Below, piece after piece: positions 18,124 to 25,592 of a stretch of 64,000 nt of DNA. Made by a program: the position numbers and the translations under genes. The notes under the pieces were generated by a model. That model saw only the letters and a program-made list of their open reading frames with translations, was not told the origin of the DNA and searched no databases. The DNA comes from Streptomyces noursei ATCC 11455 (GTDB lineage: Bacteria; Actinomycetota; Actinomycetes; Streptomycetales; Streptomycetaceae): positions 2,604,001 to 2,668,000 of the forward strand of contig NZ_CP011533.1 of the NCBI RefSeq assembly GCF_001704275.1. The letters run 5' to 3'. The first letter of the stretch is position 1; the number at the start of each line of letters is the position of its first letter.

Positions 18124-18147
18124 CGCACAGGCTCACCGCGGACCCAT

Positions 18148-18184
18148 GGAGGGGGTGCGGCCGGAATCCGGCGGCACCCCCTCC
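18148..18184. terminator. Strong intergenic hairpin after the acetyltransferase gene
   Basis: Two 18-base arms (18148-18165 and 18167-18184) pair with one mismatch, starting GGAGGGGGTGC and ending GCACCCCCTCC. It lies 25 bases after the acetyltransferase stop and before the sulfur cluster promoter. No U-tract follows, as is common in Streptomyces. Confidence 0.7.
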
Positions 18185-18233
18185 TTACGTGACGGACGCC
18201 ACAGCGTCTCGCAATGCGGGACGCTCATGTCCA

Positions 18234-18239
18234 TATCTT
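18234..18239 (+). promoter_or_regulatory. Putative -10 box of the sulfur cluster
   Basis: TATCTT fits TANNNT. It would start transcription near 18246, giving a leader RNA of about 340 nt before sirA that contains the leader peptide and hairpin below. The -35 region is not convincing. Confidence 0.35.
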
Positions 18240-18284
18240 GGATGACGGTGGACTGGCCAGAGAGCCGCGTGCCACGCTTCCGTC

Positions 18285-18368
18285 ATGTCTCGAGCTGGAA
18301 TTGCCTTGGTGAGTCGACGCCACGTCGACCTCGGCCGCATGTCCAGCGCCATTTGTCGGGCAGGCTGA
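18285..18368 (+). CDS. Cysteine-containing leader peptide of the sulfur operon
   Basis: 27 codons: M-S-R-A-G-I-A-L-V-S-R-R-H-V-D-L-G-R-M, then SSAICRAG and a stop. The core SRRHVDLGRMSSAIC matches the short putative leader peptides known in front of sulfur and cysteine genes in streptomycetes, with the single Cys near the end. It lies about 220 bases before the sulfite reductase gene. The likely role is sensing Cys-tRNA or translation state to control the downstream operon; the mechanism is inference. Confidence 0.75.
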   Translation: MSRAGIALVSRRHVDLGRMSSAICRAG

Positions 18369-18372
18369 CGCT

Positions 18373-18403
18373 GTACGCGTGAGGGCCCCGCCGCCCTGCG
18401 TAC
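18373..18403 (+). promoter_or_regulatory. Hairpin five bases after the leader peptide stop
   Basis: GTACGC (18373-18378) pairs with GCGTAC (18398-18403), and AGGGC (18382-18386) with GCCCT (18393-18397), leaving a three-base bulge on the left and a six-base loop. Its position directly behind the leader stop codon is what an attenuator or translation-coupled switch would need. There is no U-tract. Confidence 0.5.
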
Positions 18404-18587
18404 CCGGACAGCACTCAGCACCACCGCTTCGCACGCCGTCCCCACCGTCGCGGACGCGTTGCCCCCAACCCTGCAGCCCACCGCCGACGCGCGCCCGCGC
18501 GCCGCGCTTCGGTGTGTCCGCGCAGGTCAACAGGGGTGCATCGCACCGTCCGCAGCCCCCTTTGAGCCGCCCAGAAGGACGAAACCC

Positions 18588-20282
18588 ATGGCCGCCACCC
18601 CGGAACACCCCACCGCCACGACCCGCCGCAAGGCCGGCCGCCACCGCGGCGAGGGTCAGTGGGCCGTTGGCCACTTCACGCCCCTCAACGGCAACGAGCA
18701 GTTCAAGAAGGACGACGACGGTCTCAATGTGCGGACACGCATTGAGACGATCTACTCCAAGGCCGGCTTCGACTCCATCGACCCCAACGACCTGCGGGGC
18801 CGGATGCGTTGGTGGGGCCTGTACACCCAGCGCAAGCCCGGGATCGACGGCGGCAAGACCGCGGTGCTGGAGCCCGAGGAGCTCGACGACAAGTACTTCA
18901 TGCTGCGGGTCCGCATCGACGGCGGCCGGCTCACCGTCGCCCAGCTGCGCGCCATCGGCGAGGTCTCCGAGCAGTTCGCCCGGGGCACCGCGGACATCAC
19001 CGACCGGCAGAACATCCAGCTGCACTGGGTGCGCATCGAGGACGTCCCGGCCATCTGGGAGAAGCTGGAGGCGGTGGGCCTGTCCACGACCGAGGCGTGC
19101 GGCGACTGCCCGCGCGTGATCATCGGTTCCCCGGTGGCCGGCATCGCGGCGGACGAGATCATCGACGGCACCCCGGCCGTGGACGAGATCCACGAGCGCT
19201 ACATCGGCAGCAAGGAGTTCTCCAACCTGCCGCGCAAGTTCAAGACCGCGATCTCCGGCTCGCCCGTCCAGGACGTGGTGCACGAGATCAACGACGTGGC
19301 GTTCGTCGGCGTCGTCCACCCCGAGCACGGGCCGGGCTTCGACCTGTGGGTCGGCGGCGGCCTGTCCACCAACCCCAAGCTCGCGCAGCGCCTGGGCACC
19401 TGGGTGCCGCTGGACGAGGTCGCCGACGTCTGGGCCGGCGTGGTCGGGATCTTCCGCGACTACGGCTACCGGCGGCTGCGCACCCGCGCCCGCCTGAAGT
19501 TCCTGATGGCCGACTGGGGCCCGGAGAAGTTCCGCCAGGTGCTGGAGGACGAGTACCTCAAGCGGAAGCTGGTCGACGGCCCGGCGCCCGAGCAGCCCGC
19601 GCACAAGTGGCGCGACCACATCGGCGTGCACCGGCAGCAGGACGGCCGCTTCTACGTCGGCTTCGCCCCGCGCGTCGGCCGGGTCGACGGCGCCACCCTC
19701 ACCAAGGTCGCCGAACTCGCCGCCGCGCACGGCTCGGACCGGCTGCGCACCACCGTCGAGCAGAAGATGATCATCCTCGACGTGACCGAGGACCGGGTCG
19801 ACTCCCTGGTCGCCGGGCTGGAGGCGCTGGACTTCCAGGTCGACCCCTCGCCGTTCCGGCGCGGCACCATGGCCTGCACCGGCATCGAGTTCTGCAAGCT
19901 CGCCATCGTCGAGACCAAGGGACGCGGCGCCGCGCTGATCGACGAACTGGAGCGCCGGATGCCGGACTTCCAGGAGCCGATCACCATCAACCTCAACGGC
20001 TGCCCGAACGCCTGCGCCCGCATCCAGGTCGCCGACATCGGCCTCAAGGGCCAGCTGGTACTGGACGACGACGGCAACCAGGTCGAGGGCTACCAGGTGC
20101 ACCTGGGCGGCGCGCTGGGCCTGGAGCCCGGCTTCGGCCGCAAGGTCCGCGGGCTGAAGGTGACCTCCGCGGAGCTGCCCGACTACGTCGAGCGGGTGCT
20201 GCGCAACTTCGAGGCGCAGCGCACGGAGGGCGAGCGGTTCGCCAGCTGGGCGGCGCGCGCCGAAGAGGGTGCGCTGAAGTGA
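18588..20282 (+). CDS. sirA: Ferredoxin-dependent assimilatory sulfite reductase
   Basis: 564 aa sirohaem/[4Fe-4S] reductase that reduces sulfite to sulfide with electrons from ferredoxin. The cluster ligands are C430 and C436 (MACTGIEFCKLA), C472 and C476 (NGCPNACARIQ); the last also ligates sirohaem. Both ferrite/nitrite reductase half-domains are present (ITDRQNIQLHWV; VHRQQDGRFYVGFAPRVGR). Genomic setting with cysHCDN favours sulfite over nitrite. ATG 18588 follows AGAAGGA at 18573-18579. First main gene of the sulfur operon; a chelatase-like gene at 27.5 kb may provide sirohaem. Confidence 0.93.
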   Translation: MAATPEHPTATTRRKAGRHRGEGQWAVGHFTPLNGNEQFKKDDDGLNVRTRIETIYSKAGFDSIDPNDLRGRMRWWGLYTQRKPGIDGGKTAVLEPEELDDKYFMLRVRIDGGRLTVAQLRAIGEVSEQFARGTADITDRQNIQLHWVRIEDVPAIWEKLEAVGLSTTEACGDCPRVIIGSPVAGIAADEIIDGTPAVDEIHERYIGSKEFSNLPRKFKTAISGSPVQDVVHEINDVAFVGVVHPEHGPGFDLWVGGGLSTNPKLAQRLGTWVPLDEVADVWAGVVGIFRDYGYRRLRTRARLKFLMADWGPEKFRQVLEDEYLKRKLVDGPAPEQPAHKWRDHIGVHRQQDGRFYVGFAPRVGRVDGATLTKVAELAAAHGSDRLRTTVEQKMIILDVTEDRVDSLVAGLEALDFQVDPSPFRRGTMACTGIEFCKLAIVETKGRGAALIDELERRMPDFQEPITINLNGCPNACARIQVADIGLKGQLVLDDDGNQVEGYQVHLGGALGLEPGFGRKVRGLKVTSAELPDYVERVLRNFEAQRTEGERFASWAARAEEGALK

Positions 20283-20316: not shown

Positions 20317-20568
20317 GTGAGCGAACGCGCCGCGCCGTTCTACTGCCCGTACTGCGGGGACGAGGACCTGCGCCCCTCCGAGGAGGGAGGGGGGTCCGCC
20401 CAGCCCGAGCGGGGCCGAGGGCTCGGGGGCGGAGCGTGGGAGTGCCGGGCGTGCAGCCGGGCCTTCCGGCTGAAGTTCCTGGGGCTGCTGGCCCCCGGAG
20501 CCGCCGGGTCCGCCCCGCCTCCTTCCCCTTCCGCAGCTCCTTCCGCATCCGACGGAGGTACGCCGTGA
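20317..20568 (+). CDS. Small zinc-ribbon protein of the sulfur operon
   Basis: 83 aa. CPYC at residues 10-13 and CRAC (ECRACSRAF) make a zinc ribbon, a form seen between sulfite reductase and cysH in other streptomycetes. GTG 20317 has a GGAGGAA site. The two CxxC pairs are separated by a Gly-rich stretch (EEGGGSAQPERGRGLGGGAW) encoded by a GC-rich imperfect palindrome, which looks inserted. The stop overlaps the cysH GTG (GTGA), so it is translationally coupled. Role unknown; could handle iron-sulfur assembly or regulation. Confidence 0.78.
   Translation: MSERAAPFYCPYCGDEDLRPSEEGGGSAQPERGRGLGGGAWECRACSRAFRLKFLGLLAPGAAGSAPPPSPSAAPSASDGGTP
20377..20435. repeat. GC-rich imperfect palindrome inside the zinc-ribbon gene
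   Basis: CCGCCC (20397-20402) and CCGAGC (20405-20410) can pair with GCTCGG and GGGCGG in 20422-20435, giving a stem with small bulges. It encodes the Gly-rich spacer between the two Cys pairs. The interpretation as an inserted unit rests on memory of shorter homologues. Confidence 0.4.
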
Positions 20569-21254
20569 CCACCACCACCGACCTTCAGCGGCTCGCCGAG
20601 CAGGCGGGCCGCGACCTGGAGGACGCGCCCGCCCTGGAGATCCTCACCTGGGCCGCCGAGACCTTCGGTCCGCGCTTCTGCGTCACCTCCTCGATGGAGG
20701 ACGCGGTCGTCGCGCACCTGGCCTCGCGGGCCCTCCCCGGCGTGGACGTGGTGTTCCTGGACACCGGCTACCACTTCCCGGAGACCATCGGCACCCGGGA
20801 CGCGGTGGCGGCGGTGATGGACGTCAACGTCATCACCCTGACGCCCCGACAGACGGTGGCCGAGCAGGACGCCGAGTACGGGCCGAGGCTGCACGACCGC
20901 GACCCCGACCTGTGCTGCGCGCTGCGCAAGGTCAAGCCGCTCGAAGAGGGCCTGACCGGCTACGACGCCTGGGCGACCGGGCTGCGCCGGGACGAGTCGC
21001 CGACCCGGGCGAACACCCCGGTCGTCGGCTGGGACACCAAGCGGCGCAAGGTGAAGGTCTCGCCGATCGCCCGCTGGACGCAGGACGACGTGGACGCGTA
21101 CGTGGCCGAGCACGGGGTGCTCACCAACCCACTGCTGATGGACGGCTACGCCTCCGTCGGCTGCGCCCCCTGCACCCGCCGGGTGCTGGCGGGGGAGGAC
21201 GCGCGGGCCGGCCGCTGGGCCGGCAGCAACAAGACCGAGTGCGGACTGCACTGA
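20565..21254 (+). CDS. cysH: APS/PAPS reductase, [4Fe-4S] type
   Basis: 229 aa. Reduces adenylyl sulfate (APS) to sulfite with thioredoxin. It has the paired cluster cysteines C117-C118 (DLCCALRK) and C200/C203 (GCAPC), marking the iron-sulfur APS-reductase type, and the catalytic Cys in the C-terminal ECGLH (C226). The PP-loop is TSSMEDAV. GTG 20565 with GGAGG at 20554-20558. It overlaps cysC by one base at its stop (TGATG). Confidence 0.94.
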   Translation: MTTTTDLQRLAEQAGRDLEDAPALEILTWAAETFGPRFCVTSSMEDAVVAHLASRALPGVDVVFLDTGYHFPETIGTRDAVAAVMDVNVITLTPRQTVAEQDAEYGPRLHDRDPDLCCALRKVKPLEEGLTGYDAWATGLRRDESPTRANTPVVGWDTKRRKVKVSPIARWTQDDVDAYVAEHGVLTNPLLMDGYASVGCAPCTRRVLAGEDARAGRWAGSNKTECGLH

Positions 21255-21277
21255 TGGCGGAGTTTTTGGAGACACAG

Positions 21278-21811
21278 ATGACGGGCGCCACGATCTGGCT
21301 GACCGGTCTGCCGAGCGCGGGCAAGACGACCCTCGCGCGTGAGCTGGCCGAGCGGCTGCGCGGCGAGGGCCATCGCGTCGAGGTGCTCGACGGCGACGAG
21401 ATCCGCGAGTTCCTCTCCGCGGGCCTCGGATTCGGCCGCGAGGACCGGCACACCAACGTCCAGCGGATCGGCTTCGTCGCCGAACTGCTGGCGAGCAACG
21501 GCGTGAAGGCCCTGGTCCCGGTGATCGCCCCGTACGCGGACAGCCGCGAGGCGGTGCGCGAGCGCCACCAGAGCGAGGGCACCGCGTACCTGGAGGTGCA
21601 CGTCGCCACCCCGGTCGAGGTGTGCTCCGAGCGCGATGTGAAGGGGCTGTACGCCAAGCAGGCGGCCGGCGAGATCTCCGGCCTGACCGGCGTGGACGAC
21701 CCGTACGAGGCGCCCGCGGCGCCGGACCTGCGGATCGAGTCGCACACCCAGACCGTGCGGGAATCCGCGGCGGCGCTGCACGCGCTGCTCGTCGAGAGGG
21801 GGCTGGCGTGA
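21278..21811 (+). CDS. cysC: Adenylylsulfate kinase
   Basis: 177 aa from ATG 21278. Phosphorylates APS to PAPS. The P-loop GLPSAGKTT is followed by DGDEIREFLS and the FGREDRHTNVQRIGFVAELL region typical of APS kinase; the C-terminal DVKGLYAKQAAGEISGLTGVDDPYE is also diagnostic. GGAGA at 21268-21272 supports ATG 21278; an upstream ATG at 21254 forms TGATG with the cysH stop and would add eight residues. Presence of both CysC and an APS-type CysH lets the cell use either APS for assimilation or PAPS for sulfation. Confidence 0.93.
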   Translation: MTGATIWLTGLPSAGKTTLARELAERLRGEGHRVEVLDGDEIREFLSAGLGFGREDRHTNVQRIGFVAELLASNGVKALVPVIAPYADSREAVRERHQSEGTAYLEVHVATPVEVCSERDVKGLYAKQAAGEISGLTGVDDPYEAPAAPDLRIESHTQTVRESAAALHALLVERGLA

Positions 21812-21933
21812 GCGGCACACACGCGGGCACCGACCCGCAGCAGGCCGTGATACCCGCCCCTCTGTGCCGCGTGGGCGGAGATGGAGGTGCCCCCGGACGG
21901 AGTCTGGGGGAGTACGAAGGGGATACCGCGTGA
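21808..21933 (+). CDS. Short coupled frame between cysC and cysD
   Basis: A 41-codon frame whose GTG overlaps the cysC stop (GTGA) and whose TGA overlaps the cysD GTG. Its product (MSGTHAGTDPQQAV...EYEGDTA) resembles no family and its second half is encoded by a palindromic repeat unit. It probably serves, if translated, only to carry ribosomes from cysC to cysD. Confidence 0.35.
   Translation: MSGTHAGTDPQQAVIPAPLCRVGGDGGAPGRSLGEYEGDTA
21886..21912. repeat. GC-rich palindromic unit between cysC and cysD
   Basis: CCCCC-G-GAC (21890-21898), three bases, then GTC-T-GGGGG (21902-21910) pair with one G-T wobble. Flanks GGTG before and AG after match the unit in the pca operon read on the minus strand. 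It ends four bases before the GAAGGGGA site of cysD. Confidence 0.65.
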
Positions 21934-22868
21934 CCACCGTTGCTTCGCTTTCCGAGGACCTGGACAACAACCCCTACGCTCTGTCGCACCTGGACGCCCT
22001 GGAGTCCGAGGCGGTGCACATCTTCCGCGAGGTGGCGGGCGAGTTCGAGCGGCCGGTGATCCTCTTCTCCGGCGGCAAGGACTCCATCGTCATGCTGCAC
22101 CTGGCGCTGAAGGCGTTCGCGCCGGCGCCGGTACCGTTCGCGCTGCTGCACGTCGACACCGGGCACAACTTCCCCGAGGTCCTCGACTACCGCGACCGCA
22201 CCGTGGCGCGGCACGGGCTGCGGCTGCACGTCGCCTCGGTGCAGGACTTCATCGACCGCGGCGAGCTGCGCGAGCGCCCGGACGGCACCCGCAACCCGCT
22301 GCAGACCGTGCCGCTGCTGGACGCCATCGAGAAGAACCGCTTCGACGCGGTCTTCGGCGGTGGCCGGCGGGACGAGGAGAAGGCGCGCGCCAAGGAGCGG
22401 GTGTTCTCGCTGCGCGACGAGTTCGGCGGCTGGGACCCGCGCCGGCAGCGGCCCGAGCTGTGGCAGCTCTACAACGGCCGGCACTCGCCCGGCGAGCACG
22501 TCCGGGTCTTCCCGCTCTCCAACTGGACCGAGCTGGACGTCTGGCAGTACATCGCCCGCGAGAAGATCGAACTCCCCGCCATCTACTACGCCCACGAGCG
22601 CGAGGTCTTCGCGCGCAGCGGCATGTGGCTGGCGCCCGGTGAGTGGGGCGGCCCGAAGGACGGCGAGCGGCTGGAGGTCCGGCAGGTGCGCTACCGCACC
22701 GTCGGCGACATGTCCTGCACCGGCGCCGTCGAGTCGGACGCGGACACCATCGAGGCCGTCATCGCGGAGATCGCCGCGTCCCGGCTCACCGAGCGGGGCG
22801 CGACCCGGGCCGACGACAAGCTGTCCGAGGCCGCCATGGAGGACCGCAAGCGCGAGGGGTACTTCTAG
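21930..22868 (+). CDS. cysD: Sulfate adenylyltransferase subunit 2
   Basis: 312 aa PP-loop ATP pyrophosphatase; with the GTPase CysN it makes APS from ATP and sulfate. The PP-loop is LFSGGKDSIVML, followed by HVDTGHNFPEVL, FGGGRRDEEKARAKER and the C-terminal RYRTVGDMSCTGAV. GTG 21930 follows GAAGGGGA at 21916-21923. It is two bases from cysN. The cysC-cysD spacer is longer than the other junctions because of the palindromic unit. Confidence 0.94.
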   Translation: MTTVASLSEDLDNNPYALSHLDALESEAVHIFREVAGEFERPVILFSGGKDSIVMLHLALKAFAPAPVPFALLHVDTGHNFPEVLDYRDRTVARHGLRLHVASVQDFIDRGELRERPDGTRNPLQTVPLLDAIEKNRFDAVFGGGRRDEEKARAKERVFSLRDEFGGWDPRRQRPELWQLYNGRHSPGEHVRVFPLSNWTELDVWQYIAREKIELPAIYYAHEREVFARSGMWLAPGEWGGPKDGERLEVRQVRYRTVGDMSCTGAVESDADTIEAVIAEIAASRLTERGATRADDKLSEAAMEDRKREGYF

Positions 22869-22870
22869 CC

Positions 22871-24265
22871 ATGAGCACGACCAACACCACCCGTGCGGAC
22901 CTGACGGTGGATGCGGGTGCCACCTCGCTGCTGCGCTTCGCCACCGCCGGCTCCGTGGACGACGGCAAGTCGACCCTGGTCGGCCGGCTGCTGCACGACT
23001 CCAAGTCGGTCCTCGCCGACCAGTTGGAGGCCGTCGAGCACGCGTCCCGCAACCGCGGGCAGGAGGCGCCGGACCTGGCGCTGCTGACGGACGGGCTGCG
23101 CGCCGAGCGCGAACAGGGCATCACCATCGACGTGGCCTACCGCTACTTCGCCACCCCGCGCCGCCGCTTCATCCTGGCCGACACCCCCGGGCATGTGCAG
23201 TACACCCGGAACATGGTGACCGGGGCGTCCACCGCCGAGCTGGCCGTCGTCCTCGTCGACGCCCGCAACGGCGTGGTCGAGCAGACCCGCCGGCACGCCG
23301 CGGTCGCCGCCCTGCTGCGGGTGCCGCACGTCGTGCTGGCCGTCAACAAGATGGACCTGGTCGACTACCAGGAGTCCGTCTTCGCGGCCATCGCCGAGGA
23401 GTTCACCGCCTACGCCGGCTCGCTGGGCGTGCCGGGCTGGGGGTCTGGGGGAGACCCCCAGGAAAACTGGTGCACCGCCATCCCGATCTCGGCGCTGGCC
23501 GGCGACAACGTCGTGACGCCGTCGGCCACCATGGACTGGTACGGCGGCCCGACCGTGCTGGAGCACCTGGAGACCGTGCCGGTGGTCGCCGACCCGTCGG
23601 ACGACCCGGCCCGCTTCCCGGTCCAGTACGTCATCCGTCCGCAGACCGCCGAGCACCCCGACTACCGCGGCTACGCGGGCCAGATCGCCTCCGGCGTGCT
23701 GCGCGTCGGCGACGCCGTCACCGTACTGCCCTCGGGCCGGACGAGCACCGTCGAGGGGATCGACGCGCTCGGCCAGAGCGTGGACGTCGCCTGGGCACCG
23801 CAGTCGGTGACCCTCCGGCTCGCCGACGACATCGACGTCTCCCGCGGCGACCTGATCGCCCCGGCCGCCGCGGCGCCGTCGGTCACCCAGGACGTCGAGG
23901 CCACCGTCTGCCACGTCGCCGACCGGCCGCTGACCGTCGGGCAGCGGGTGCTGCTCAAGCACACCACCCGCACCGTCAAGGCGATCGTCAAGGAGATCCC
24001 GTCCCGGCTGACCCTGGACGATCTCTCCCAGCACCCGGCCCCCGGTGAACTGGTCGCCAACGACATCGGCCGGATCGTGGTCCGCACCGCCGCGCCGCTG
24101 GCGCTGGACGCCTACGCGGACTCCCGGCGCACCGGCTCCTTCCTGCTGATCGACCCCTCGGACGGCACCACGCTGACCGCGGGCATGGCGGGCACGGCGT
24201 TCGCGGAGGCGACCGCGGACCCGGCGCCGGAGGGTGCGACCGACGACGAGGGGTGGGATTTCTGA
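22871..24265 (+). CDS. cysN: Sulfate adenylyltransferase subunit 1 (GTPase)
   Basis: 464 aa EF-Tu-like GTPase that drives APS formation by CysD. G1 is GSVDDGKST (residues 27-35), G2 includes EQGITIDVAYRYF, G3 is DTPGH and G4 is NKMD; the beta-barrel domains follow. Residues about 189-200 (GWGSGGDPQENW) interrupt the usual sequence between the LGVP and TAIPISAL blocks and are encoded by a perfect palindrome at 23437-23461. The insertion is in frame and lies on the surface loop before the G5 strand, so activity may be kept. Confidence 0.93.
   Translation: MSTTNTTRADLTVDAGATSLLRFATAGSVDDGKSTLVGRLLHDSKSVLADQLEAVEHASRNRGQEAPDLALLTDGLRAEREQGITIDVAYRYFATPRRRFILADTPGHVQYTRNMVTGASTAELAVVLVDARNGVVEQTRRHAAVAALLRVPHVVLAVNKMDLVDYQESVFAAIAEEFTAYAGSLGVPGWGSGGDPQENWCTAIPISALAGDNVVTPSATMDWYGGPTVLEHLETVPVVADPSDDPARFPVQYVIRPQTAEHPDYRGYAGQIASGVLRVGDAVTVLPSGRTSTVEGIDALGQSVDVAWAPQSVTLRLADDIDVSRGDLIAPAAAAPSVTQDVEATVCHVADRPLTVGQRVLLKHTTRTVKAIVKEIPSRLTLDDLSQHPAPGELVANDIGRIVVRTAAPLALDAYADSRRTGSFLLIDPSDGTTLTAGMAGTAFAEATADPAPEGATDDEGWDF
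23437..23461. repeat. Perfect palindrome inserted in frame in cysN
   Basis: CTGGGGGTCT (23437-23446) and its exact complement AGACCCCCAG (23452-23461) with a GGGGG loop. It encodes most of the extra residues 189-198 of CysN. Confidence 0.7.
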
Positions 24266-24267
24266 TC

Positions 24268-24369
24268 ATGCTCAGGGACATCTTCTCGACCTTCGCGAAG
24301 GAAGGGGGCCGCGTCGGCAGCGGCGCCCTCGGGAGCGGACAGGGCGGAGTCGGCCGATGTATGTGCTGA
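24268..24369 (+). CDS. Possible small peptide ending Cys-Met-Cys
   Basis: A 33-codon frame starting two bases after the cysN stop: MLRDIFSTFAKEGG..., Gly-rich middle, and C-terminus GRCMC. No family is known to me. Two of its last three codons are Cys, and it lies directly in front of the sulfonate transporter genes, so it might act as a second Cys-sensing leader. No strong ribosome-binding site is visible; a chance frame is possible. Confidence 0.3.
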   Translation: MLRDIFSTFAKEGGRVGSGALGSGQGGVGRCMC

Positions 24370-24482
24370 CCGGGCCCGACTCCGTACCCCCCACGTCCTC
24401 CCTCCGAAGTTCCACCCTTTCGCCGGGCGCGCCCCCCTAGCGAGGCGCGTACTCCCCCGGCCTTCCGAGAGGAACACCTCCC

Positions 24483-25592
24483 GTGTCTGCCGTTCGTCAT
24501 CGCCTCCTGGCGGTCGCCGCCGCCGTCCCGTTGCTGACCCTCGCGCTGGGGGCCTGCGGCTACGGCTCCCAGGCCCAGAAGGACACCGCGGCCACCGTCG
24601 CCCCGAAGGGGCCCAAGGTCGACGGGCTCGATCAGGTCAAGATCGGATTCTTCGGCAACACCACCCACGCCACGCCGCTGATCGGCCTTCAGACCGGCCA
24701 GTTCCAGAAGGAGCTGGGCGGCACCGCGGTGAAGTCCTCGGTCTTCAACGCCGGCCCCGCCGAGATCGAGGCGCTCAACTCGAACGCCATCGACATCGGC
24801 TGGATCGGCCCCTCCCCCGCGATCAACGGCTATGTGAAGTCGCACGGCAAGAGCCTGAAGATCATCGCCGGTTCGGCCTCCGGCGGTGTCTCGCTGATCG
24901 TCAACCCCAAGAAGATCAAGAGCCTGGACGACCTCAAGGGCAAGACGATCGCCACCCCGCAGCTGGGCAACACCCAGGACGTCGCCCTGCTGAACTTCCT
25001 TGCCGGCAAGGGCTACACGGTCGACGCCACCACCGGCAAGGGCGACGTCACCGTCCAGCGCATCGACAACAAGGTCACGCCCACCGCCTTCGCGCAGGGC
25101 AGCATCGACGCCGCCTGGGTGCCCGAGCCCACCGCGTCCAAGCTGGTCGCCGCGGGCGGCAAGGCGCTGCTGGACGAGAAGAAGCTGTGGCCGGACGGCA
25201 AGTTCGTCATCACCAACGTGATCGTCTCGCAGCGCTTCCTCAAGGAGCACCCGAAGGCGGTCGAGGCCGTGCTGCGCGCCTCGGTGACGACCAACGCCTG
25301 GATCCGGTCGCACCCCGCCGAGGCGGTCAAGGCGCTGAACGAGAAGCTGGCCGACCCGGCGATCACCGGCAAGCCGCTCCCGGACAACGTCATCGACCCG
25401 GCCTTCAAGAACGTCGACGTCACCGATGACCCGCTGGCCGCCACCCTCCAGGAGGAGGCGGACCACGCCGTCAAGGCGGGGCTGCTGAAGAAGCCGGACC
25501 TCAAGGGCATCTACGACCTCACCCTGCTGAACAAGGTGCTCAAGTCCGAGGGCAAGCCGCCGGTCGACGACGCCGGCCTCGGCGGCAACTGA
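24483..25592 (+). CDS. ssuA: Sulfonate/sulfate-ester ABC transporter, substrate-binding lipoprotein
   Basis: 369 aa. Signal peptide with lipobox LALGAC, lipidated at C25, so it is anchored outside the membrane. The rest is an SsuA/TauA/NrtA-type periplasmic-binding fold (VKIGFFGNTTHATPLIGLQTGQF, NAIDIGWIGPSPAINGY, DLKGKTIATPQLGNTQD). Position within the cys cluster supports aliphatic sulfonate or related sulfur compound uptake; taurine or sulfate cannot be excluded. GTG 24483 has GAGAGGA at 24467-24473. Confidence 0.9.
   Translation: MSAVRHRLLAVAAAVPLLTLALGACGYGSQAQKDTAATVAPKGPKVDGLDQVKIGFFGNTTHATPLIGLQTGQFQKELGGTAVKSSVFNAGPAEIEALNSNAIDIGWIGPSPAINGYVKSHGKSLKIIAGSASGGVSLIVNPKKIKSLDDLKGKTIATPQLGNTQDVALLNFLAGKGYTVDATTGKGDVTVQRIDNKVTPTAFAQGSIDAAWVPEPTASKLVAAGGKALLDEKKLWPDGKFVITNVIVSQRFLKEHPKAVEAVLRASVTTNAWIRSHPAEAVKALNEKLADPAITGKPLPDNVIDPAFKNVDVTDDPLAATLQEEADHAVKAGLLKKPDLKGIYDLTLLNKVLKSEGKPPVDDAGLGGN

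Follow-up and report, generated by a model that had tools for sequence, protein, structure and literature searches.

Upstream elements and a leader frame before sirA

Within the window (the whole 64-kb stretch of DNA that was analysed, 64,000 nucleotides), a nitrite/sulfite reductase gene of the SCO6102 type, sirA, is followed by further sulfur genes and preceded by a short open reading frame with a single Cys codon. The features of this region are as follows:

18206..18222, + strand: palindrome GTCTCGCAATGCGGGAC, of the genus-conserved pattern GTCnC..CG.GAC
18229..18243, + strand: NdgR-like box GTCCATATCTTGGAT, with 12 of 15 positions fitting the published ChIP-seq motif by eye
18249..18254, + strand: probable -35 element TGGACT, at -36..-31 with the A of ATG as +1 (61-species gapless profile)
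18270..18278, + strand: probable extended -10 element TGnCACGCT, at -15..-7 (61-species gapless profile)
18285..18368, + strand: leader peptide frame of the NF042934 family, 27 codons, on an mRNA that is probably leaderless
18354..18356, + strand: core Cys codon, TGT here as in all 61 sirA leaders and all 115 family leaders examined
18354..18368, + strand: 5' arm of the complementarity P1 (Cys codon, codons 25-27 and stop)
18369..18572, + strand: C-rich, G-poor spacer, a possible Rho loading region (first 100 nt: C 0.47, G 0.27)
18373..18403, + strand: inverted repeat (the hairpin noted earlier), a clade-specific apical extension within the P1 loop
18414..18427, + strand: 3' arm of P1, element CUCAGCACCACCGC
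18574..18579, + strand: Shine-Dalgarno sequence GAAGGA of sirA
18588..20282, + strand: sirA, nitrite/sulfite reductase (SCO6102-type)
20317..25592, + strand: downstream sulfur genes (small ORF, cysH, cysC, cysD, cysN, ssuA-like)

The leader frame (18285-18368, +) begins with ATG, encodes the 27-residue peptide MSRAGIALVSRRHVDLGRMSSAICRAG and contains a lone Cys codon, TGT, at 18354-18356. It is matched by the NCBIfam model NF042934 ("putative leader peptide") with 33 bits (E = 3.1e-8), over the curated cut-off of 27, while the models of the Ms4527A family (NF042936, 29 bits) and the Ms5788A family (NF042933, 14.1 bits) both score it below their curated cut-offs of 45. A search of the 64-kb window against Rfam gave no match at the gathering threshold, and up to an E-value of 10 the leader region returned a single match, to osmY, at chance level (11.1 bits, E = 9.1).

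Matches to sirA, whose closest named relatives are from Streptomyces, were found in all 61 genomes of the genus set (the own genome and 60 others; 62 matches in all). A leader lies upstream of the sirA ortholog in every one of them, invariably with an ATG start and with a length of 27 codons in 60 and 26 codons in one; a second, 67% identical sirA copy (L072, in genome G038) showed no leader in the 1000 bases upstream. The peptide pattern R-x-V-D-L-x-R is kept at the level of residues, with its synonymous sites free. Judged by these sequence comparisons, the 27-codon frame with a single TGT codon that had been proposed in the first-pass annotation is real, far beyond chance, and its proposed tie to the sulfur operon is borne out by the NF042934 score and by its position before sirA orthologs across the genus. 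Placement before a Cys or sulfur gene is an expectation that comes from family neighbours, the model itself having no such rule, and it was found here in the sirA operon; in the same genome a sulfurtransferase gene (L004) and a cysM-type gene (L003) are likewise preceded by NF042934 leaders over the cut-off. The earlier remark that leaders of this type are known agrees both with the NCBIfam models and with the leaderless Cys-rich uORFs of mycobacteria (PMC4633059, in excerpt).

The sirA operon is described as induced in oxidative stress via HbpS-SenS-SenR, together with cysA and cysM (PMC4991794, in excerpt), and an annotation paper on S. lividans lists eight leader peptides, none of which is assigned to cysteine (PMC8079986, in excerpt). 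Between sirA and cysH lies an 83-aa ORF (20317-20568) with Cys pairs resembling a zinc ribbon, for which all Pfam and NCBIfam matches were sub-threshold.

A gapless promoter profile of the 61 species, anchored on the leader ATG, revealed TGGACT at -36..-31 (its bases conserved in 59, 60, 60, 59, 59 and 51 of 61) and a -10 region with TG at -15/-14 (60/61 each) followed by CACGCT at -12..-7 (A-11 in 60/61, T-7 in 61/61). With the A of ATG taken as +1, the spacing of these conserved elements is textbook, which makes it probable that the mRNA is leaderless and starts at the leader ATG; because this spacing fits the ATG, an alternative start at the GTG of codon 9, served by a separate -10, was dropped. 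Since both hexamers are far from TTGACA/TATAAT, and since a consensus promoter scan found no promoter, the -35 at 18249..18254 included, the leaderless promoter is one that we infer. Mycobacterial relatives of the leader have been reported to be leaderless (PMC4633059, in excerpt). The NdgR-like box lies upstream of the probable -35, and NdgR binding at the SCO6102 promoter of S. coelicolor has been found by ChIP-seq (PMC4340878, in excerpt). Just upstream of this box, at 18206-18222, stands the palindrome GTCTCG-N5-CGGGAC, whose pattern is kept across the genus.

A conserved UGU codon in sirA leaders and family leaders

In each of the 61 sirA leaders the core Cys is encoded by UGU. Within the sirA gene, Cys codons are UGC 157 : UGU 3 (30 genomes with full sirA), and in eight genes of the window UGC 22 : UGU 0. 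A class-wide search gave NF042934 matches over the cut-off in 96 of 148 genomes, with matches at E 1e-4 or better in 54 of 81 genera; in a phylum-wide draw of 149 genomes the family was found in 7, all within the class Actinomycetes. A set of 115 leaders was assembled, made up of 108 of 110 loci examined from among the best-scoring class-wide matches (L143, read in the wrong frame, and L176, in which the core was not located, were left out) and 7 paralogs from the own genome, whose other matches are L002 (the sirA leader, counted among the 61), L006 and L010. The core Cys, ten residues past the V of VDL, is encoded by UGU in 115 of these 115 leaders of the class, a count that ignores the kinship of leaders (73 distinct cores; 105 distinct 33-base cores).

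Because the HMM and the core-finding expressions act on protein, they cannot favour UGU. The other Cys codons of the 115 leaders are mostly UGC, both upstream in the core (UGC 48 : UGU 5) and in the tail (UGC 75 : UGU 19), and in the 44 leaders with a C-x-C motif the first Cys is UGC 38 : UGU 6 while the core Cys is UGU in all 44. The ORFs that lie downstream, called by script and with a GC3 of at least 0.8, have UGC 168 : UGU 16, and at other conserved residues of the leaders the synonymous sites are free, as with Asp (GAC 89 : GAT 26). Twenty-one further loci, several of which repeat earlier places, comprised 20 with UGU and one, L281, with UGA. A stop codon thus stands at the core-Cys position in L281 (RRHIDLLRVCSAI, TGA) and also in L006 (RRHIDLLRVCSAA, TAG), and Arg takes this position in L010, which is below the cut-off; UGC was not found there in any of the leaders examined. 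In a set of named sirA loci, which overlaps the 61-genome set (L204 and L019, for example), 77 of 80 fit the search expression, all with UGU, the remaining three being L190 (TGT) and L210, which have a slightly different core, and L254, which is cut off.

The genes downstream of the 115 leaders were grouped into BLAST clusters, with Pfam run on one representative of most clusters; the starts of the downstream genes were picked by script, and individual assignments may therefore be wrong. The largest clusters are rhodanese/sulfurtransferase (32), sirA (NIR_SIR, 14), cysteine dioxygenase (CDO, 9) and cysM-type (PALP, 8), followed by SBP family 5 (6), cysH (PAPS reductase, 5), luciferase-type monooxygenase (4) and SDF-family symporter (4). 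Smaller clusters hold ThiS-type carriers (3), FMN reductase (3), MarR-like (3), flavin reductase (2) and POR-type (2) products, with APS kinase and TauD among the smallest, and some clusters are without an evident sulfur role. The strong conservation of the peptide could also be expected if it acted in trans, or if the ORF were an incidental, conserved stretch of promoter or RNA. We regard this as very improbable, as Cys and sulfur genes lie in cis among the largest downstream clusters and codon-specific fixation is not expected of a trans-acting peptide.

Ideas of selective charging at attenuator codons compare isoacceptors. If, as we presume, these genomes have a single tRNA-Cys, selective charging fails to account for the preference for UGU; slower reading by wobble would account for it, and so would an arrest specific to the codon in the A site. 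We put forward, as a tentative proposal that we would not yet back, that NF042934 leaders are codon-specific arrest sensors, in which the VDLxR chain would make the ribosome hesitate at one wobble-read UGU, and in which a synonymous change to UGC would weaken or remove control by cysteine throughout the class. If this is right, one synonymous site decides cysteine sensing across a major bacterial class. The usual interpretation of such leaders is attenuation by a run of codons; here a single codon that appears fixed in its nucleotides stands beside a peptide fixed in its residues. On the counts above, the retention of UGU, the rarer synonym, at one Cys of the family leaders is a regularity that we have not found described: neither the Streptomyces sirA leader nor this constancy of UGU came up in the titles, abstract starts and passages of open-licence PubMed Central literature, and a mycobacterial study (Canestrari 2020) may already mention the codon.

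Complementarity across the leader stop codon and the hairpin beside it

Past the leader stop, most of the 61 species share a recurrent element, CAGCACC(A/G)CCG or a near form, which is complementary to the last leader codons and the stop. Its CAGC lies 4-12 bases past the stop in 47 of 61 species and 13-50 bases past it in 9, and is absent in 5. The window's own pairing is between GCUGA at 18364-18368 and UCAGC at 18415-18419, which closes a loop that contains the hairpin at 18373-18403. The Cys codon often joins this complementarity, GUC pairing with GAC or GAU. Codon 27 follows an N-G-C pattern in which the first base is free (C, G, A or T) and the others are nearly fixed (G 56/60, C 60/60), and this suits RNA pairing better than it suits the peptide.

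Among 13 positions scanned, the 45-base segment that opens with the Cys codon had the lowest mean folding z (-1.36), with 28 of 61 species below -1.5; 16 of 61, our own sequence among them (+0.38), were above -0.5 at this position, and the 73-base P1 element of the window has a z of -0.28, with 75 of 200 shuffles as good. At least six pairs across the stop are expected in 59 of 61 species. The leader tail folds better with its native spacer than with a shuffled one in 48 of 61 (mean z -0.95), nine pairs being reached by 48% of shuffled spacers as against 48 of 61 natives, and native tail-spacer pairs are better in energy than those with swapped spacers in only 26 of 61. Covariation was assessed in an alignment of 45 of the 61 sequences, from which 16 with inserted or unusual loops were left out (L011, which is the window, L019, L021, L024, L025, L028, L029, L035, L036, L039, L047, L049, L053, L057, L058 and L071). 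None was found in these 45 species: 91.4% of cells pair, against 91.1% with shuffled columns, and double changes occur in 1 of 396 cells, compared with 8 cells when the element is slid by +3. RNAalifold did not recover P1. P1 is a conserved complementarity, not a proven stem. A P1-like hairpin was rejected as a general feature of the NF042934 family, the mean z over the 115 leaders being -0.08.

These data bear on whether UGU could have been retained for pairing at the base of P1 and not for decoding. Downstream pairing of the codon's G and U is indeed predicted for sirA leaders, with mean probabilities of 0.64 and 0.58, and a pyrimidine follows UGU in 109 of 115 leaders (C 89, U 20, A 5, G 1). 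We nevertheless consider a pairing role for the codon improbable, given that UGU is equally fixed in the family leaders, a set without the hairpin (mean z -0.08, n = 115), and that no partner with matching unusual conservation appears in the nucleotide profile from -75 to +44.

The hairpin just after the leader stop, to which the first-pass annotation had drawn attention, exists as an inverted repeat at 18373-18403, separated from the stop by four bases, and sirA does begin a short way past it, at 18588, 184 bases further on. As a structure it is not special: the stretch 18369-18408 folds at -17 kcal/mol (z -1.08), with 21 of 200 shuffles equally good. A strong post-stop fold, defined by an energy of at most -12 kcal/mol over the first 40 bases past the stop and a stem starting within 10 bases of that stop, occurs in only 6 of 61 species (the window, L028, L029, L035, L036 and L071), which leaves 55 without one, and the median over the 61 species is -4.2 kcal/mol. 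The hairpin was accordingly rejected as a conserved element. As it lies inside the P1 loop, the first reading appears to have caught the tip of a larger element. The compensatory arm changes in relatives that the earlier reading had named as its test are wanting in the basal stem, where the single cell in 396 does not go beyond shuffles; at the tip, arms differ yet still pair in the closest relatives. Indeed, the four closest named relatives (L183-L186) carry an apical hairpin at the same place with different arm sequences (for L184, a shorter fold shows it in the centroid only), while the next three (L187-L189) have a short loop without it. Unrelated hairpins between the leader stop and the region of the P1 3' arm were also observed in L021, L025, L029 and L035, as in the window, and suggest that the apical position is a tolerant one.

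Possible outputs of the leader and comparison with known systems

Taking the locus as a whole, we think it likely that the leader controls the sirA-cysHCDN operon as a cysteine-responsive leader-peptide attenuator and represents a single-codon form, in Streptomyces, of the actinobacterial NF042934 family. When Cys-tRNA is scarce, a ribosome on the leader would slow at UGU, perhaps aided by the VDLxR nascent chain, and while at the Cys codon would cover one arm of P1, which then could not form. With ample cysteine the ribosome would pass and leave, P1 would form and sirA expression would fall. The output would most likely be premature transcription termination in the C-rich spacer, by Rho or by a U-less hairpin, control of sirA translation being less likely. 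The sensor step is the best supported part of this putative mechanism.

No terminator-like site with a U tail was found in 18130-18640, so that the hairpin with a U-run that marks a classical terminator/antiterminator attenuator was not seen in this region. That result is in keeping with Rho-dependent attenuation, in which the C-rich spacer would serve as a Rho loading site to which the leader ribosome controls access, and so is the composition of the spacer. C exceeds G in 61 of 61 species, and the C/G ratio is 1.5 or more in 60 of 61 as against 8 of 61 upstream; the same ratio is reached after the stop in 67 of 107 family leaders, compared with 12 of 115 upstream; among gene upstream regions of the window, 4 of 33 reach it. 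For the cys leaders of mycobacteria, Rho attenuation was also put forward, as a weak prediction, in a 2005 paper (PMC1262725, in excerpt). C-richness is, however, only circumstantial, and the Cys codon lies few codons before the stop (the stop is the third to fifth codon after it in 89 of 115 leaders). A ribosome stalled there would barely reach the spacer and would hardly mask it as in TnaC, which weakens a simple Rho model. Rho is the output that we favour for the proposed attenuator, as a plausible choice that falls short of being probable.

Alternatively, in translational attenuation, the leader RNA would sequester the sirA ribosome-binding site in the absence of a stalled ribosome, and a stall at the Cys codon would free it. 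Such a mechanism is cited for Cys genes of M. smegmatis in a 2026 paper (PMC13236596, in excerpt), and two complementarities lend it some appeal, namely a loose GUCC..GGAC pattern over the sirA Shine-Dalgarno sequence in 50 of 61 species (mismatched in the window) and CCGUCC/GGACGG in 8 of 9 cysteine dioxygenase leaders. When a ribosome stall at codon 24 was modelled, however, the unpaired probability of the sirA Shine-Dalgarno sequence went from 0.366 to 0.376 (mean change 0.009), and the only consistent change was at bases next to the stop, with none near the sirA ATG. Native duplexes between leader and Shine-Dalgarno sequence likewise equalled permuted ones over 62 leaders (p 0.51). Pairing of the two via UGUCC/GGAC, attractive by eye, was dropped, being unsupported by both the mask model and the permutation test. 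We hold translational attenuation to be rather unlikely for sirA.

Several sequence patterns near the Shine-Dalgarno region may be recorded in their own right. The GUCC..GGAC pattern often takes the form GUCCCGAAGGAC; in the window it falls in the region 18574-18581, where the copy reads GCCC..GGAC, with one mismatch. A GCGC-rich inverted repeat, CUGCGCA..UGCGCAG, just upstream of the sirA Shine-Dalgarno sequence matched by pattern in 94 of 141 loci, and the pattern search did not find it in the window (L011). In leaders before cysteine dioxygenase, CCGUCC follows the Cys codon and is complementary, by eye, to GGACGG of the Shine-Dalgarno region in 8 of 9 (L001, L124, L125, L128, L129, L130, L132 and L134; L133 has a mismatch), so that direct sequestration of the ribosome-binding site is possible in this subgroup.

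E. coli TnaC and Rho-dependent leaders combine a conserved nascent peptide with a downstream C-rich region that lacks a U-tailed terminator, and the stall occurs at the stop codon. The sirA leader resembles TnaC in its conserved nascent peptide and in the C-rich, G-poor region past the stop in which no U-tailed terminator was found, but differs from it in that the stall would fall on a Cys codon that precedes the stop by a few codons, and not on the stop itself. The uORFC-8-2 motif before cysS in Rhodobacterales has tandem Cys codons, mostly UGC, in a stem, together with an intrinsic terminator (PMC8632094, in excerpt); the two share uORF Cys codons inside a stem, a putative one in the sirA leader, whereas the sirA leader has one UGU and no terminator was found. 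In mycobacteria, Cys-rich uORFs before nirA/MSMEG_4527 and cysA2 are reported as leaderless (PMC4633059, in excerpt). These leaders, Ms4527A (before nirA/MSMEG_4527) and Ms5788A (before cysA2), are like the sirA leader in having a nirA/sirA-type gene downstream, a related core (29 bits with NF042936) and a probable leaderless start. The mycobacterial uORFs have a run of Cys codons, while the sirA leader has a single one, scores below both 45-bit cut-offs and lacks the run by which polycysteine leaderless attenuators are recognised. With NF042934 (cis_reg_atten) the sirA leader shares the same core, at a score over the curated cut-off; that model describes protein only, and the UGU codon and the P1 complementarity lie outside it.
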